A DNA stretch of 37,207 bases from Streptomyces sp. NRRL WC-3618 (lineage in GTDB: Bacteria > Actinomycetota > Actinomycetes > Streptomycetales > Streptomycetaceae). The notes beneath the pieces were generated by a model. That model was not told where the DNA came from, made no database searches, and was given only the letters and a program-made list of their open reading frames with translations. Positions 31,765-37,207 of this stretch are shown here, piece after piece (positions within the stretch are counted from its first letter, which is position 1; each line of letters starts with the position of its first letter). Location: the NCBI RefSeq assembly GCF_001280005.1, contig NZ_LGDW01000475.1, positions 1 through 37,207 on the forward strand, in the 5' to 3' direction. The position numbers were made by a program, and so were the translations under genes.

Positions 31765-32493
31765 GTGATCAGGACGGCCGCTTACACACTGGACGACGGG
31801 GGCCTGGACGACCGGGTGCCCTTTCTCGCCCGCCTTGAACAGGAGGACCGCACCACCCTTCTGTCGCTGGGCCGCGAGCTGAATTTCGCCACCCGGGTGG
31901 CCCTGATCCACCAGAGCGAGCCCTCCTCGCACGTCCTCTTCCTCGTCCAGGGCTGGACAAAGGTCACCGCGTCCGCCGCCAACGGCTACGAGGCACTCCT
32001 CTCGCTGCGCGGCCCCGGCGACATAGTCGGCGAGTCGGCGGCGCTCACCGGACGCCCCCGCTCGGCCACGGTGACCGCGCTGGAGGCGGTGCGCGCGGTG
32101 GCGGTCGAGCACGAGCGGTTCAAAGACTTCCTGGGACGTTCACCGGCTGTTTCGTTCGCGCTGCTGGGCCTCACGGCCGACCGCACCCGGGCCGCGGACC
32201 GCCGCCGCCTGGAGTTCGCGTCCATGCACGTGCGGGAACGCTTCGCGATCCTCCTCCTCGACCTCGCCCGCACCCACGGCCGCCGCACCCCCGAGGGCAT
32301 CGAACTCTCCGTCCCCCTGAGCAAGCAGGAACTGGCGGGCTCGGTGGGCGCGTCGCGGGAGATGGTCCAGCGGCTGCTGCGGGAGCTGCGCGAGAAGGAG
32401 GCGGTGGAGACGGGGAGACGGGCACTGCTGATACGCCGGCCGGACATCTTGCGCAGGATCGCGGCGGCCGAGCTCAGCCCGTCCGGCGATTGA
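31765..32493 (+). CDS. CRP/FNR-family transcription regulator with cNMP-binding domain
   Basis: Regulator of 242 aa. The N-terminal cyclic-nucleotide-binding fold (about 18-125) keeps the phosphate-binding cassette: GDIVGE with Glu90 and RPRSATV with Arg99-Ser100, the equivalents of Glu72/Arg82/Ser83 in E. coli CRP. It can therefore plausibly bind cAMP or another cNMP. A dimer helix (about 125-160) leads to a winged helix (about 180-225; LSKQELAGSVGASREMVQRL). There are no FNR-type cysteines. I start at GTG 31765 (preceded by GGGGG); a longer frame to 31630 is unlikely. The C-terminal ELSPSGD is encoded by the start of a dispersed Streptomyces repeat. First gene of the plus-strand block with a cyclase-like gene. 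Confidence 0.9.
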   Translation: MIRTAAYTLDDGGLDDRVPFLARLEQEDRTTLLSLGRELNFATRVALIHQSEPSSHVLFLVQGWTKVTASAANGYEALLSLRGPGDIVGESAALTGRPRSATVTALEAVRAVAVEHERFKDFLGRSPAVSFALLGLTADRTRAADRRRLEFASMHVRERFAILLLDLARTHGRRTPEGIELSVPLSKQELAGSVGASREMVQRLLRELREKEAVETGRRALLIRRPDILRRIAAAELSPSGD

Positions 32494-32545
32494 GGACAAG
32501 GCCCGTTCAGGGCCGGAGCGGGGGCCTGGGGGCGGCAGCCCCCAG
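32478..32545 (+). repeat. Dispersed Streptomyces 3'-end repeat with hairpin
   Basis: Starting within the last codons of the CRP-like gene (CCCGTCCGGCGATTGAGGAC) and running through GGGCCGGAGCGGGGGCC to a perfect hairpin CTGGGGGC-GGCA-GCCCCCAG (32526-32545). I recognise this arrangement from many Streptomyces gene ends; that is memory, not a search. It probably acts as the 3' hairpin of the regulator transcript. The remaining about 150 nt to the next gene show nothing else. Confidence 0.6.
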
Positions 32546-32692
32546 TACGACGCCCACACCGACTCCCCCACGCCCCGCAGAGCGTTATGTGTACCCCGTC
32601 ACACTCCGACTGCGTCATCCGCCCTCACAACACACCGCCCCCACCCGCCACGCTGCTGCAAGCAACAACCCCCACACTGGCGAAGGGCGACC

Positions 32693-33577
32693 ATGACCGA
32701 CCCCGTGAGCCGCACGATCCTGCTGCTGGACATAGAGAGGTTCAGCGACCGGGACGACGTCGAGCAGGCGTACCTGCGGCGCATGCTCTACGACATCACC
32801 GACCGCGTCCTGGAATGCGCCGGCATCGACGAGACCCGCCGTCTGCGCGCCGACCGCGGCGACTCCGTGATGGAGCTCATCGACGCGAACGCCCCCGTCA
32901 CCGCCCTGCTCCGGGCCCTCCTGACGGACGCCCCCGCGCAGTTGCGCACCGTCAACCGCATGGCGTCCAGCTCGGCCCAGATCAGGCTGCGCGGAGTCCT
33001 CGCCACCGGTTACGTGGCCGTGGACCGGCACGACGGCTGGGTCGGCACCGACCTGAACGACGCCTGCCGGCTGCTGGACGCCCAGCTGCTGCGGGCCGCC
33101 CTACGCGAACGCCCCCACGACTTCGCGCTGATGGTCTCGAACGCCCTGTACACCGGCGTCGTACGGCACGACCATCCCGGCATCCCGGCCGGCGAGTTCC
33201 ACCCGGTCGGGGTGGACACCAAGAACGGCCCGATGAGGGCCTGGCTGCACGGCCCGCTGCCCAGCGGCCACCAGGCAGCCCCGGCCGGTACGGCCGACCA
33301 GGACCACCGTGACACGGGGGCGGGGGAGGGGCCGGGCGGTTCGGGGGACCGCCCGGCGCCGCCGACTCCGCCGGCACCGGAAGCGGCGCAGGCACCGAGA
33401 GTCCCCGCGCAGGGCACCTCCCCCGAGAGCCGTCCCGCCCCGGGCGCCGTCTTCAACTTCAACGGTGGCGTGAACGTCGGCGGCAATGTGGTGGCCGGTG
33501 ACCAGCACGGCGTCAGCGGCGGCCAGGTCACCGGGGACGTCAACCTGGGCGGTCACAACGGGGGTGACGGCTCATGA
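32693..33577 (+). CDS. Class III nucleotidyl-cyclase-like protein with C-terminal glycine-rich motif
   Basis: Protein of 294 aa. Residues about 7-190 follow the class III cyclase homology domain: Asp13 in ILLLDIERFS and Asp57 in RGDSVMEL fit the two metal aspartates, and DLNDACRLLDA supplies the NxxxR pair (Asn122, Arg126). The substrate-selecting positions are not the classical adenylyl set (no Lys before GD), so the product cannot be predicted; a pyrimidine cNMP is possible. Residues about 190-250 are a Pro/Ala/Gly linker. The last about 40 (VFNFNGGVNVGGNVVAGDQH and onward) are a Gly/Val/Asn-rich beta-prone motif that recurs in the next protein. ATG at 32693; the stop overlaps the next start (ATGA). 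Confidence 0.75.
   Translation: MTDPVSRTILLLDIERFSDRDDVEQAYLRRMLYDITDRVLECAGIDETRRLRADRGDSVMELIDANAPVTALLRALLTDAPAQLRTVNRMASSSAQIRLRGVLATGYVAVDRHDGWVGTDLNDACRLLDAQLLRAALRERPHDFALMVSNALYTGVVRHDHPGIPAGEFHPVGVDTKNGPMRAWLHGPLPSGHQAAPAGTADQDHRDTGAGEGPGGSGDRPAPPTPPAPEAAQAPRVPAQGTSPESRPAPGAVFNFNGGVNVGGNVVAGDQHGVSGGQVTGDVNLGGHNGGDGS
33502..33540 (+). repeat. 39-nt exact direct repeat, copy 1 (end of cyclase-like gene)
   Basis: Begins CCAGCACGGCGTCAGCGGCG; identical in all 39 bases to 33840-33878 and read in the corresponding frame, coding QHGVSGGQVTGDV in both genes. Even synonymous positions are identical. Confidence 0.9.
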
Positions 33578-35856
33578 GCACCCCGGACTCCGGGCCCGAC
33601 GAGCCGTCCGCCTCCGACGACGGCAAGGACGGCAGAGACGGCAGAGACGGCGCCGCCAAGGACGCGAAGGAGTCCAAGGACGCCAAAGACGCCAAGGAGT
33701 CGGAGGGCTCCGAGGGGTCGGAGGAGCGCGAGCAGCCCCAGACCGCCTGGTCGGCGCGGCGCGACCTGATCGACCACAGCCCGCGGACGATGAACGTCGG
33801 CGACCGTACCCGCTTCGGCGGCAGCATGGTCGGCGGCAGCCAGCACGGCGTCAGCGGCGGCCAGGTCACCGGGGACGTGATCATGGGCAGCAAGACGGAG
33901 ATCCACCAGTGGGCGTTCCCCGGCCTCTCCGCGCCGTCCGCCTCCGTGTCCGGCGAGGTCCCGCAGACCACGCTGGACCGGCTCGCCGCCTCGTTCGTCG
34001 CCGCCGACGCGACCATCGAGACCCTGCTCGCCCGGCTGCGCCGGGACCGCGTCCTCGTCCTGTCGGGCGCCCGCTTCACCGGCAGGCACACGGCCGCCCT
34101 GATGCTGCTGCACCGGCTCGGGGCAGCCCCCGTACACACGCTCGACCGCGACACGAACCCGAGCACCCTGGCGGACGAGTTCACCGCACCGGACGCGGCC
34201 ACAGCCACAGCCGGAGCCGGAGGAACCGCGGCCCAGCCCCGCGGCTACGTCCTCGCCGACCTCGTCACCCGCCGCGACCGCCCCCTGCGCGAGCACCACC
34301 TCCTCGCCGCCTGCGACCGCCTCACCGCGCTCGACGCGTACCTCGTCGTCACCGTCGGCCCGACCGCCGTCCTGGAGGACGTACCGGTCGTCAGCTGGCA
34401 GCCGCCGCAGACGGCCGACGTCCTGGCCGCCCACCTGCGCATCCGCGTCGCCGACGACGAGACGGCGGCGAAGCTGCTCGAGCTGCCCGACGTCACCGAG
34501 TTCCTGAGCCGGAGCCACCAACTGCGCGAGGTGGCCGCGTTCGCACAGTTGCTCGGCCGGTACGCGGCCGGCGAGGTCGGCGAGCAGGCCGTCGCCCAGT
34601 TCTCCCTGATCTCCCTGGAGAACCAGGTCCAGGAGTGGTTCGAGGAGGACGAGGCGTCGATCCATCTGCGCGACAAGGCGTTCCTGGTGGCCCTGGCCGC
34701 GTTCGACGACGGCCCGTACGCCCTCACCGCCGAGCTCAGCGACCTGCTCTACCGCTTCCTCCAGCAGACCCAGAACCCGGTGGGCGTCCCCGAGGTCCCC
34801 GTCTTCGGCACGCACATAGGCAAGCGCCTCCAGCTGGCCCGCGCCGAGCGCTACGAGGACGACGAGCACACCGAGTGGGGCCCGGTGACCCAACAGAAGG
34901 CGCGCTTCGTCGACGACCGCGCCTCCCTCGTCCTCCTGCGCGAAGTCTGGACGGGCCACCCCTCCGCGCGCCCCGCGCTGATCGACTGGCTGCGTCGGCT
35001 GGCCGACGACGGCCGCCCCCTCGTCCGTACCCGGGCCGCGTCCACGGTGGCCGTCCTGGCCCGCACCGACCTGCCCTCGGCCATGGCGCTGGTCATCGAA
35101 CCCTGGGCCATCTCCAACCGCTTCCGGCACCGCCTGGTGGCCGTCAACGCGCTCACCCTCGCCCACCTCATCGACACGCCGAACATCCCGCGCATCCTCG
35201 ACGAGTGGTCCAAGGGCGATGACCGGCGGCTGCGCTGGGTGGCCGTACGGGCGTACGCGCTGATCGGCGCCGAACGCCCCGAGCAGGCCCTGGCCGCCCT
35301 GCGCACCGCCGCGCGCAGCCTGTACCGGGACCTCGCCGACCCGGACGACTTCGACCGCGAGATGGCCCGCGAACTCGGCGAGGCCGTCGCCCTGCTGCTC
35401 CTCTCCGAGGCCGGCGACCGGGTCCTCGCCGAACTGCGCCTGCACTTCACCGACGACCGGCTCGCGGTGCACGACCTGACCATCGGCGGCTTCGTCAGCG
35501 CCTGCCGCCACACCCAGGACGACGAGCGCTACGGCCATCCGCTGGTCCTCGGCTGGTACGCGCAGGCGGCCAACGAGGGGTCGGCCGCCGCCCACCACAT
35601 CCCGTTCCTGTGGCGGGAGGCGCTGGGCGACCCGAAGGCGACCCGGCACGCCCTGGACGTGCTGCGCGAGTGGGTCCTCATCGCCGACCGCTCGACGACC
35701 ACGGAATGGGCCCTGGCGCACCTGCTGCGCACCCTGGTCACCACCCCGGCGGAGCACCAGCGCCTGGGCCACCTCCTGCGCACGATGCCGGGCGAGGACG
35801 GCGCGGCCCCGCCCGCGGTGGCGGCCCGCCTCCTGACGGCGCTCCCCATCCGCTAA
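33574..35856 (+). CDS. STAND-like NTPase with N-terminal shared motif and helical-repeat C-terminus
   Basis: Protein of 760 aa. Residues 17-55 are a low-complexity Lys/Asp/Glu/Ser tract. Residues about 72-106 (MNVGDRTRFGGSMVGGSQHG and onward) repeat the glycine-rich motif of the preceding protein. A P-loop-like strand-loop follows, VLVLSGARFTGRHTAALMLL (160-179), where GxxxxGRH replaces GxxxxGK[ST]. A short Ala/Thr linker and GYVLADLVTRRD, in a Walker-B-like place, come next. From about 440 it is a long alpha-helical region of HEAT-like pairs (for example RTRAASTVAVLARTDLPSAM, RWVAVRAYALIGAERPEQAL), typical of STAND sensor halves. ATPase activity is doubtful; nucleotide binding is possible. 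Coupled to the cyclase-like gene by ATGA and followed after 36 nt by the SPFH-like gene. Confidence 0.65.
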   Translation: MSTPDSGPDEPSASDDGKDGRDGRDGAAKDAKESKDAKDAKESEGSEGSEEREQPQTAWSARRDLIDHSPRTMNVGDRTRFGGSMVGGSQHGVSGGQVTGDVIMGSKTEIHQWAFPGLSAPSASVSGEVPQTTLDRLAASFVAADATIETLLARLRRDRVLVLSGARFTGRHTAALMLLHRLGAAPVHTLDRDTNPSTLADEFTAPDAATATAGAGGTAAQPRGYVLADLVTRRDRPLREHHLLAACDRLTALDAYLVVTVGPTAVLEDVPVVSWQPPQTADVLAAHLRIRVADDETAAKLLELPDVTEFLSRSHQLREVAAFAQLLGRYAAGEVGEQAVAQFSLISLENQVQEWFEEDEASIHLRDKAFLVALAAFDDGPYALTAELSDLLYRFLQQTQNPVGVPEVPVFGTHIGKRLQLARAERYEDDEHTEWGPVTQQKARFVDDRASLVLLREVWTGHPSARPALIDWLRRLADDGRPLVRTRAASTVAVLARTDLPSAMALVIEPWAISNRFRHRLVAVNALTLAHLIDTPNIPRILDEWSKGDDRRLRWVAVRAYALIGAERPEQALAALRTAARSLYRDLADPDDFDREMARELGEAVALLLLSEAGDRVLAELRLHFTDDRLAVHDLTIGGFVSACRHTQDDERYGHPLVLGWYAQAANEGSAAAHHIPFLWREALGDPKATRHALDVLREWVLIADRSTTTEWALAHLLRTLVTTPAEHQRLGHLLRTMPGEDGAAPPAVAARLLTALPIR
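33840..33878 (+). repeat. 39-nt exact direct repeat, copy 2 (start of STAND-like gene)
   Basis: Second copy of the 33502-33540 sequence, 338 bp downstream, inside the N-terminal motif of the STAND-like protein. Recombination between the copies would delete 338 bp and fuse the two motifs; 338 is not a multiple of 3. Confidence 0.9.
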
Positions 35857-35892
35857 CCCGTCACGTCCCCGCCCACCGAGGAGCAACGCACG

Positions 35893-37207
35893 ATGTCCGC
35901 CTTCCACCGCCCGCCCGAGTGGCAGCAGTCCGCAGACCGGCACACCCAGCTGATCGACCCGGTCCTCACCGTGCGGCAGCTGTCGCGCTTCGAACTCTCC
36001 CTGAAGTCGACGGTCCGCATCGACCACGCGCTCGTCTTCGCGACCGCCAAGGGCGGCTACGAGGCGTACCTGCCGCCGCGCCGCCCGACGCGCAGCGAGA
36101 TCGCCGCCCGCCACTACATGGCGGTGTACGAGGTCGACATGGGCGTGCACCCGTTCTCCGGAACGCTCACGCTCCCCAGTGACAACGACGCGTTCGAGTT
36201 CTCGGCCGAGATCGACGTGTCGTGGCAGGTCGTCGACCCGGGCAGGTTCGTGGGCAGCGGCCACCGGGACGTACCCGGCCTGCTCATCGGCGAACTCCAG
36301 CGCGCCGCACGCCCGGTGAGCCGGCGCTTCACGATCGCGGACAGCGCGGCGGCGGAAGGGGAGCTCCTCCAGGCGATCAACGTCCTGGGCCCGCTGGGCG
36401 CACCGGCCGGCCTCCAGACCACCTGGACCCTGCGGCTGCGCCGCGACCAGGAGAACATCGACCACCAGCGCCGCCTCCAGGCGATCGACCACTCGGCGAC
36501 CGAGCAGGTACGGGCGGCCGAGCGGGGCGCCGAAGTCGACGTGGAGGTGGACCGCCGCAACCGTCAGCAGGACGCCCTCCAGATCGAGCGCTCGATGTCG
36601 TACGGCGTCCAGCAGCAGCACCTGGCCCTCCAGCAGCAGCGCTGGGACTACGAACAGGCGGCGCTGCAGAGCAGCCAGCAGCACCAGCTCTCCATCCAGC
36701 AGGGCCATCAGGAACTGGAGTTGCAGCAGATAGAGGCGCAGAAGATCGCCTTCTACCAGTGGCACCTGCAACAGGGCGGCGTCCAGGCCTGGGCCCTCCA
36801 CCTCGCCCAGCATCCCGAGGACTCCCGCATGGTCATGACGAGCATGCGGGACGACCAGCTCCGCATGATCCAGGCCCAGATGGACCTGGTGAAGGACCTG
36901 CTGCACGGCGACAACGCGGAGAAGTTCGAACTGGAGGGCCCCAAGCAACTGGCCCTGCGCACGGTCAGCGACATCCTCAACCAACGCCTGCCGGGCGTCC
37001 CCCAGACCCCTCCGCCCCTTCCGGGCGGCGACCCGGGCCCGGGCGACCCGTACGCGGCGTACGGCCAGGGGGCGCCCGGGGTTCCCGGCGCGCCGACGCA
37101 GCCGGGATTCGCACCGGGCGGGTCCGTCCCCGCCCCGTACGACCCCGCGTACGCGCGCCCCGGCCACGCCCCCGGCAAGGCCGAGCCCGCCGACCAGACC
37201 CCGACCG
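35893..37207 (+). CDS. SPFH/band-7-like protein with Gln-rich coiled coil (3' end outside window)
   Basis: At least 438 aa, open to the window end. ATG at 35893 with GAGGAG 9 nt upstream. Residues about 75-185 have the strand pattern of an SPFH (band 7) domain: MGVHPFSGTLTLPSDNDAFE, FSAEIDVSWQVVDPGRFV, then LLIGELQRAARPVSRRF. Residues about 185-345 are a long, Gln-rich coiled coil (QQQHLALQQQRWDYEQ, IEAQKIAFYQWHLQQGG). From about 368 it is Pro/Gly-rich and disordered. No transmembrane helix is seen in the visible part. I recognise the type from other streptomycetes, sometimes mislabelled as PE-PGRS protein. SPFH proteins assemble into membrane microdomain rings; a scaffold role for the neighbouring proteins is inferred from position. 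Confidence 0.75.
   Translation, partial: MSAFHRPPEWQQSADRHTQLIDPVLTVRQLSRFELSLKSTVRIDHALVFATAKGGYEAYLPPRRPTRSEIAARHYMAVYEVDMGVHPFSGTLTLPSDNDAFEFSAEIDVSWQVVDPGRFVGSGHRDVPGLLIGELQRAARPVSRRFTIADSAAAEGELLQAINVLGPLGAPAGLQTTWTLRLRRDQENIDHQRRLQAIDHSATEQVRAAERGAEVDVEVDRRNRQQDALQIERSMSYGVQQQHLALQQQRWDYEQAALQSSQQHQLSIQQGHQELELQQIEAQKIAFYQWHLQQGGVQAWALHLAQHPEDSRMVMTSMRDDQLRMIQAQMDLVKDLLHGDNAEKFELEGPKQLALRTVSDILNQRLPGVPQTPPPLPGGDPGPGDPYAAYGQGAPGVPGAPTQPGFAPGGSVPAPYDPAYARPGHAPGKAEPADQTPT

Follow-up and report, generated by a model that had tools for sequence, protein, structure and literature searches.

The window analysed here, a stretch of 37,207 nucleotides that makes up the entire contig C474 within the 9.3 Mb genome assembly of Streptomyces sp. 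NRRL WC-3618, closes with four plus-strand genes encoding, in order, a regulator of the CRP/FNR family, a class III nucleotide cyclase, a STAND-like protein with a helical repeat half and an SPFH-like protein. They form the front (5′) end of an operon conserved in Streptomyces, whose STAND-like protein, an NLR-like sensor, probably switches on the cyclase through a short matching protein tag. We give about an even chance to the reading that the operon as a whole is an NLR-gated, Pycsar-like signalling system. All four genes had been placed correctly in an initial annotation of this DNA, which also recognised that the STAND gene is coupled to the cyclase gene by an ATGA overlap but overlooked the motif that the two proteins share. 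The features are as follows.

31765..32493, plus strand: CRP/FNR-family regulator of 242 amino acids, GTG start, with a cyclic nucleoside monophosphate (cNMP)-binding domain and a winged helix (Pfam PF00027 and PF13545)
32693..33577, plus strand: class III nucleotide cyclase of 294 amino acids, catalytic domain in residues 1–190 (family profile and model)
33455..33550, plus strand: Gly-rich motif at the cyclase C-terminus, residues 255–286 (local alignment to the STAND N-terminus)
33574..35856, plus strand: STAND-like NTPase-fold protein of 760 amino acids, with a HEAT-like repeat half and Arg for Lys in Walker A (AlphaFold2 model, nSTAND3 in the family, VIA)
33793..33888, plus strand: STAND N-terminal copy of the motif, residues 74–105, before the NTPase (local alignment to the cyclase C-terminus)
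33946..34983, plus strand: NTPase and winged-helix region of the STAND protein, residues about 125–470 (VIA ranges)
34951..35853, plus strand: HEAT-like helical repeat region of the STAND protein, residues about 460–760 (HEAT-type chains, helix pairs in the model)
35893..37207, plus strand: SPFH/Band_7-like protein with a Gln-rich and Pro-rich C-terminal part (Band_7 in relatives); the gene exceeds the contig end
30981..31352, minus strand: rpsL, the divergent neighbour that marks the locus (rpsL-rpsG-fusA-tuf)

A motif shared by the cyclase and the STAND protein

The C-terminus of the window cyclase and the N-terminus of its STAND neighbour carry the same short Gly-rich motif, the local alignment of the two copies giving a z of 14.6 that was reached by none of 1000 shuffles. 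The last 50 residues of the cyclase were compared in the same way with the STAND N-terminus in 27 hand-picked loci of different types, among them type A loci (the window's kind) and type B loci (the kind found on contig C11 of the same genome, with vWA and Tubulin_2). The alignment reaches a z of at least 3.3 in 20 of the 27, with 0 of 1000 shuffles as good in 17 of these; two of the 20, L103 and L092, rest on low-complexity sequence. The motif itself varies between loci yet matches within them: the summed score of the true pairs is 1722, against 955 ± 73 for permuted pairs (0 of 20,000 permutations as high), and when the window is kept as the sole type A locus (19 loci) the sum is 989 against 598 ± 42, again with 0 of 20,000. 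A control against the STAND C-terminus gives 631 against 619 ± 21, a value reached by 1431 of 5000 permutations. Across 87 type A stretches the motif pattern occurs 64 times in STAND proteins, 59 times in cyclases and never in the other operon proteins, the remaining seven matches being unassigned frames.

This arrangement matches the layout published for bacterial amyloid signalling motifs (BASS), in which matching motifs are found in the C-termini of Bell-domain proteins and the N-termini of neighbouring NLRs (PMC8086366, PMC12261475; these and the other papers named by PMC number are represented here by excerpts, to which the comparisons are limited). The pattern of sharing suggests that the motif is the likely coupling step between sensor and enzyme.

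A conserved operon between rpoC and rpsL

Conservation of the locus was followed in the best 80 of the 104 confirmed cyclase relatives in named genomes, all 80 of them from Streptomyces. The linkage assumed in the initial annotation holds in these orthologous loci: rpsL lies divergently beside the block in 75 of the 80, the other five being short contigs, and the genes for the CRP regulator, the STAND protein and the SPFH-like protein are found in 76, 74 and 73 loci, respectively, in the order CRP, cyclase, STAND, SPFH, PycTM, M48. Five of the six loci without a STAND gene are contig ends, whilst the sixth, L083, appears to have lost the middle genes; here M48 directly follows the cyclase, and STAND, SPFH and PycTM seem to have been deleted. 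The four genes first described as a block are therefore present, but the end of that block is only the end of the contig, two more genes following in relatives.

The first of these encodes a PycTM protein with three predicted membrane segments (PF18967, E 2.5e-21 in L085; PADLOC PycTM models, E about 1e-12), with a four-base start–stop overlap at the gene in 22 of the 67 loci listed; the second encodes a protein in which a long Pro-rich N-terminus is joined to an M48 metalloprotease domain (E 2.5e-17). PycTM is present in 56 of the 60 orthologous loci with at least 2.5 kb of sequence after the SPFH gene, and M48 in all 59 with at least 4.5 kb. At L124 and L127 PycTM was likewise not found between SPFH and M48, the other genes being kept. 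In the genome of the window, contig C462 starts with an M48 protease gene (92% identity to the L085 protein), next to which rpoC lies on the opposite strand; we therefore take the block to fill the rpoC–rpsL interval, with its missing part in the assembly gap between C474 and C462; the PycTM gene of the window locus would lie in that gap. Elsewhere in this genome there is a further PycTM-family match (C80:1319-1579, E 2.4e-13).

Association between PycTM and the cyclase family was measured in 61 Streptomyces genomes, with 54 PycTM matches (53 over the family cut-off) and 55 cyclase matches (one fragment dropped). Half of the PycTM matches, 27 of 54, have a cyclase within 10 kb, on the same strand in 26 cases, where rough arithmetic (about one cyclase per 8 Mb genome) leads one to expect well under one by chance. 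In 22 of the 27, PycTM is encoded 3.3–5.2 kb downstream of the cyclase, a gap wide enough for STAND alone or for STAND and SPFH; of the others, four are about 0.9 kb upstream and one is 8.7 kb away on the other strand. Divergent cyclases with PycTM about 0.9 kb upstream are seen in G045:C44, G010:C2 and G052:C1 (both ends), and are perhaps canonical two-gene Pycsar systems.

Paralogous loci away from rpsL vary in the parts that they hold. On contig C11 of the window's own genome (L005:5000-17001) a type B locus encodes CRP, cyclase, STAND, SPFH, PycTM (E 5.5e-17), vWA and Tubulin_2; its cyclase and STAND protein share no clear motif in the alignment test. Among 20 picked stretches around cyclase relatives of other Streptomyces, a CRP-family frame is found in 18 (kilobases off and on the opposite strand in L092 and L094), STAND in 13, PycTM in nine and SPFH in seven, and L109 is an unlinked type A locus. 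The downstream modules vary, from SPFH/PycTM/M48 and SPFH/PycTM/vWA/Tubulin_2 to DUF4407 with or without PycTM and SPFH with PP2C and vWA. The DUF4407 membrane proteins (E down to 3.5e-67) are encoded downstream of STAND at L104:13574-15151, L107:13145-14596, L205:13919-15310 and L214:13302-14687, preceding PycTM in two of the four, and make a candidate output module. In a sample drawn from the class, the cyclase family (E ≤1e-20) occurs in 32 of 197 genomes and 12 of 90 genera, and 20 stretches from this sample contain a CRP frame in 12 cases, STAND in nine and SPFH in five.

Cyclase and regulator

By itself the window cyclase has no match in Pfam, NCBIfam or PADLOC. The profile of its family, however, matches solved class III cyclases (3et6, E 5.5e-5), and the predicted structure is that of a class III cyclase fold, as the initial annotation had expected. 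The two metal aspartates and the NxxxR pair that it pointed out (Asp13 and Asp57; N122 and R126) are each conserved in 80 of 80 orthologues, as are R55 and K177. Arg55, two residues before the second metal aspartate, recalls K104 of AnPycC (whose aspartate is D106), whereas Leu11, two residues before the first, differs from the Phe of two solved PycC proteins (numbering of PMC11224242, in the part available). Solved PycC structures are not among the structure matches listed, which excludes nothing. Judged by its residues, the cyclase would make a 3′,5′-cyclic mononucleotide.

The regulator is a clear member of its family, matching cNMP_binding (PF00027, E 1.2e-17) and HTH_Crp_2 (PF13545, E 1.1e-13), with CRP/FNR-family structures as its closest solved relatives (3h3u on top, E about 1e-19); its cNMP domain also matches the PADLOC PycTIR model (E 9.4e-13). 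The phosphate-binding cassette described earlier as intact is indeed so, its pattern (GE, 6–9 residues, R[SAT]A) occurring in 74 of 76 orthologues and in 12 of 19 paralogues, where some of the misses are probably wrong frames. The nearest solved CRP has in its C-helix a T-N pair, which we take to touch the adenine; the window protein has A-D at the aligned residues, and this substitution makes plain cyclic AMP binding doubtful.

The STAND-like sensor and the SPFH-like protein

The window STAND protein shows only weak repeat matches, and none to STAND models, in Pfam, NCBIfam and PADLOC. In its family, nSTAND3 matches five of 28 members at E ≤1e-3 (best 7.2e-6) and 15 of 28 at E ≤1, and HEAT_2 matches two and 14 of 28 at the same thresholds. 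The AlphaFold2 model (pLDDT, the model's per-residue confidence, 84) shows an NTPase followed by helical repeats in the form of helix pairs, VIA finds residues 125–500 to resemble ORC, NLR and CED-4 folds, and HEAT-type chains match residues 452–615 (best E 0.002). The Foldseek matches of the model include, at low TM-scores, AVAST5 (E 3.3e-4) and SAMD9 (E 1e-5); a search of viral structures gave two of 205 matches at E ≤1e-3, those listed being mostly ATPases or unnamed proteins. The modelled order, NTPase-HD-WHD and then a repeat sensor region, appears to be that of a STAND protein, so that the fold and helical repeat half proposed initially stand, whilst the Walker A motif proves degenerate. 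The replacement of its Lys by Arg means that ATP hydrolysis may be lost, and suggests that assembly of the protein may not need it. Lys is retained in the STAND proteins of L092, L094, L200 and L214. No effector domain is seen within the STAND protein itself, whose output seems to be left to a partner enzyme.

For the SPFH-like protein of the window, Pfam gives nothing beyond one chance-level SPFH match (E 5.1). Band_7 matches four of 22 relatives (best E 2.4e-5; the count at E ≤1e-3 is likewise four of 22), whilst hhalign of the family against true Band_7 proteins of related genomes is weak (probability 32% with E 4.7e-4 in local mode, 4.8% in global mode) and a profile search of the PDB with the SPFH alignment returned no SPFH match. 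The scaffold-like assignment of the initial annotation is tentative, with Band_7 matches in some relatives and none in the window protein.

Distribution and exchange at the locus

The operon is patchily distributed. A cyclase orthologue (at least 54% identity) is found in 13 of the 61 sampled Streptomyces genomes and is missing from the other 48. Coordinates place it next to rpsL in 11 of these genomes; of the remaining two, G017 is interrupted by contig breaks, and G060 has cyclase and rpsL on separate contigs, its fetched locus having no rpsL nearby. The distance from rpoC to rpsL is 6.2–9.9 kb in six genomes with the orthologue, against 0.36–3.7 kb in 11 of 14 fetched genomes without it, the other three having no rpoC within the stretch. 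The fixed rpoC–rpsL place counts against a freely moving mobile island, even though 48 of 61 genomes are without the orthologue. In two other Streptomyces, L112 and L115, the place of the operon upstream of rpsL is taken by a long series of genes resembling those of phage tails or particles (translations judged by eye), and rpoC does not lie within about 18 kb. The rpoC–rpsL interval may be an insertion hot spot.

Two classes of STAND protein, divided by a cut at 52% identity, occupy this one site, with median identities to the window of 70.5% (48 loci) and 44.4% (25 loci). SPFH (73.9 and 42.7%) and M48 (78.3 and 51.6%, measured against L085) follow the STAND class, whereas the cyclase (70.7 and 67.8%), PycTM (73.1 and 69.2%, against L085) and FusA (92 and 92%) do not. 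On quick trees, the STAND class changes at least 15 times on that of fusA (68 loci; shuffled mean 20.0, minimum 14 of 300), a count that poor fusA resolution may inflate, and eight times on that of the cyclase (73 loci; shuffled mean 21.1, minimum 15). Sensor and platform seem, then, to have been exchanged whilst the signalling core stays, which fits what would be expected of a conflict locus.

A proposed mechanism and its alternatives

In the NLR-gated, Pycsar-like reading, the STAND/HEAT protein would be the sensor, assembling when its HEAT half meets a trigger. Assembly would expose many copies of its N-terminal Gly-rich motif, and these could template the matching motif at the cyclase C-terminus, so bringing cyclase chains together as dimers. 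Class III cyclases need dimers. The 3′,5′-cyclic mononucleotide made by the enzyme would act on PycTM, leading to membrane damage or a growth stop, and on the CRP regulator, whose cNMP pocket is intact, leading to control of the operon or of other genes. The SPFH-like protein and the M48 protease might organise or clear a membrane platform. Most likely the system would serve in biological conflict, for example through abortive infection, in what is a multicellular bacterium. In a sharper form, the coupling would be a prion-like switch: an amyloid or solenoid motif templated from STAND to cyclase, with the cyclic nucleotide opening a PycTM pore and resetting transcription via the dedicated CRP, and with CRP, cyclase and STAND as a plug-in platform for interchangeable outputs. 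We put this form forward tentatively, and think it on the unlikely side.

A number of observations weigh against the proposal. Four of the five type B loci have no shared motif and the fifth, L103, has low complexity only, whilst L094, L096 and L219 also fail the motif test. PycTM is absent between its neighbours in four of 60 orthologous loci (L058, L063, L065, L079), no orthologous PycTM was found in the window's own assembly, where the search for it matched only the C11 paralogue and the Pfam search adds the match on C80, the PycTM profile matches just two of the 20 class-sample stretches, both from Streptomyces, and the other 27 of the 54 PycTM matches are not near a member of the cyclase family. 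The catalytic Asn is replaced in many cyclase paralogues, and no PycC model of PADLOC, a limited library, matches the cyclase. In the sensor, ordinary AAA+ ATPases score nearly as high as NLRs in VIA, and the window protein departs from the Walker A pattern GxxxxGK[ST] by having Arg where Lys is expected, as do 26 of the 28 aligned family members. The rpoC–rpsL interval, finally, is a core position and not a defence island.

One alternative is a housekeeping circuit for envelope stress or development, in which SPFH and M48 monitor membrane protein quality, STAND integrates, the cyclase signals to CRP and PycTM modulates the membrane without killing. The pairing of SPFH with an M48 membrane protease resembles quality control of the HflKC/HtpX type, the core position is fixed, M48 is never missing where there is room for it and PycTM sometimes is, and the CRP gene leads the operon in 76 of 80 loci and is otherwise cut off by a contig end. 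We nevertheless hold such a circuit to be doubtful: against it stand the patchy occurrence of the orthologue and the closely spaced rpoC and rpsL in most fetched genomes without it, the swapping of sensor classes at one site, the strong linkage of PycTM to the cyclase family and the replacement of SPFH and M48 by DUF4407, vWA/Tubulin_2 or PP2C/vWA at paralogous loci.

Two further alternatives concern single steps. The shared tails might be a soluble beta-solenoid or oligomerisation clip that holds cyclase and STAND in a constitutive complex, with no signalling amyloid. The motifs are Gly-rich, L105 has several similar units in tandem, and 99 of the first 123 STAND residues fall below pLDDT 50 in the single-chain model, so that the model cannot tell a clip from an amyloid. 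Placement at the enzyme C-terminus and the NLR N-terminus, a length of 20–30 residues and turnover of motif type with matching kept within pairs are, on the other hand, the layout published for BASS (in the excerpts), and a clip of this kind is a possible but rather unlikely explanation. It is more improbable still that the cyclase is dead or merely nucleotide-binding, the CRP answering to cyclic AMP from elsewhere and the block joining a regulator to an unrelated conflict module. The loss of the catalytic Asn in paralogues and the intact core of the CRP pocket would allow this; the invariance of D13, R55, D57, N122, R126 and K177 in the orthologues, the A-D in place of T-N and the CRP-family frame in 18 of 20 paralogue stretches (though distant and on the other strand in L092 and L094) all speak against it.

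Relation to known systems

The initial annotation likened the block to Pycsar, and the comparison is stronger than could then be known because a PycTM effector gene follows in relatives; the likeness stands to that extent, nucleotide production and phage defence being putative. Its statement that the gene set matches no named system holds only in part, since PycTM belongs to the named Pycsar system. PycTM disrupts the membrane on cyclic pyrimidines, and PycC enzymes share catalytic motifs with class III enzymes (PMC11224242). Common to Pycsar and the present operon are the class III cyclase fold with two metal aspartates, the PycTM encoded alongside in relatives and the PycTIR-like cNMP domain of the window-locus CRP. 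The operon differs in its four extra genes, including STAND and a separate CRP, in the shared motif, in the lack of a PADLOC PycC match and in the Leu, rather than the Phe described in the available part of that paper, two residues before the first metal aspartate.

With BASS the operon has in common a motif of about 20–40 residues at the STAND N-terminus with a matching motif at the neighbour's C-terminus, covarying by locus, a likeness in motif layout. The partner here is a class III cyclase, whereas the BASS 1–10 families are, in the excerpts, defined with Bell-domain proteins (PMC8086366).

In multicellular bacteria, Kaur et al. described conflict systems whose parts include cNMP cyclase, Band 7, inactive STAND, vWA and tubulin (PMC7159879); in iSTAND2 the adaptor domain of the iSTAND2 N-terminus is also borne by the partner enzyme, which is infrequently a cNMP cyclase (PMC8195603). 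Their systems (iSTAND, iSTAND2, VMAP, GAP1-N2) have the cyclase, Band 7 and STAND parts, and type B loci add vWA and Tubulin_2; as far as the excerpts go, iSTAND2 is the nearest precedent for cyclase–STAND coupling and is close in logic. The shared element of the window is by contrast a short Gly-rich motif with no folded adaptor, and CRP, SPFH, PycTM and M48 are separate genes. The vWA-MoxR-iSTAND ternary system was set aside, as the 7.8 kb rpoC–rpsL interval of L123 is filled by the six genes, leaving no place for vWA or MoxR (no search aimed at MoxR was made), and CBASS likewise, no CD-NTase having turned up when the four window proteins were matched to Pfam and PADLOC.

Avs/AVAST and other STAND defence proteins have the same STAND NTPase fold and helical repeat sensor half, but the window protein has no visible effector domain of its own. 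SPFH proteins also form complexes with proteases, as in HflKC–FtsH and HtpX. Such complexes are similar in the placing of an SPFH-like gene beside that of a membrane metalloprotease; the window pair differs in lying inside a nucleotide-signalling operon, and its M48 protein in its long Pro-rich N-terminus. Of the matches listed from the open-licence literature, none concerns a Pycsar-like operon with STAND, a CRP regulator or SPFH, and none amyloid motifs on cyclases.

Significance

Pycsar cyclases answer phage infection, and the excerpts consulted name no switch that turns them on. If the proposal is true, the switch would be an NLR-like sensor dedicated to the cyclase and matched to its tag, a testable answer for this branch at least. 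Kaur et al. predicted cyclases that, in the parts available, share folded adaptors with iSTAND2; templating by a short motif, with Pycsar as output, would be a step further, and NLR amyloid signalling would be extended from Bell-domain partners to second-messenger enzymes. Two separately studied parts of bacterial immunity would thereby be linked and, the motif pairs being short, cross-seeding between them could be tested with peptides.

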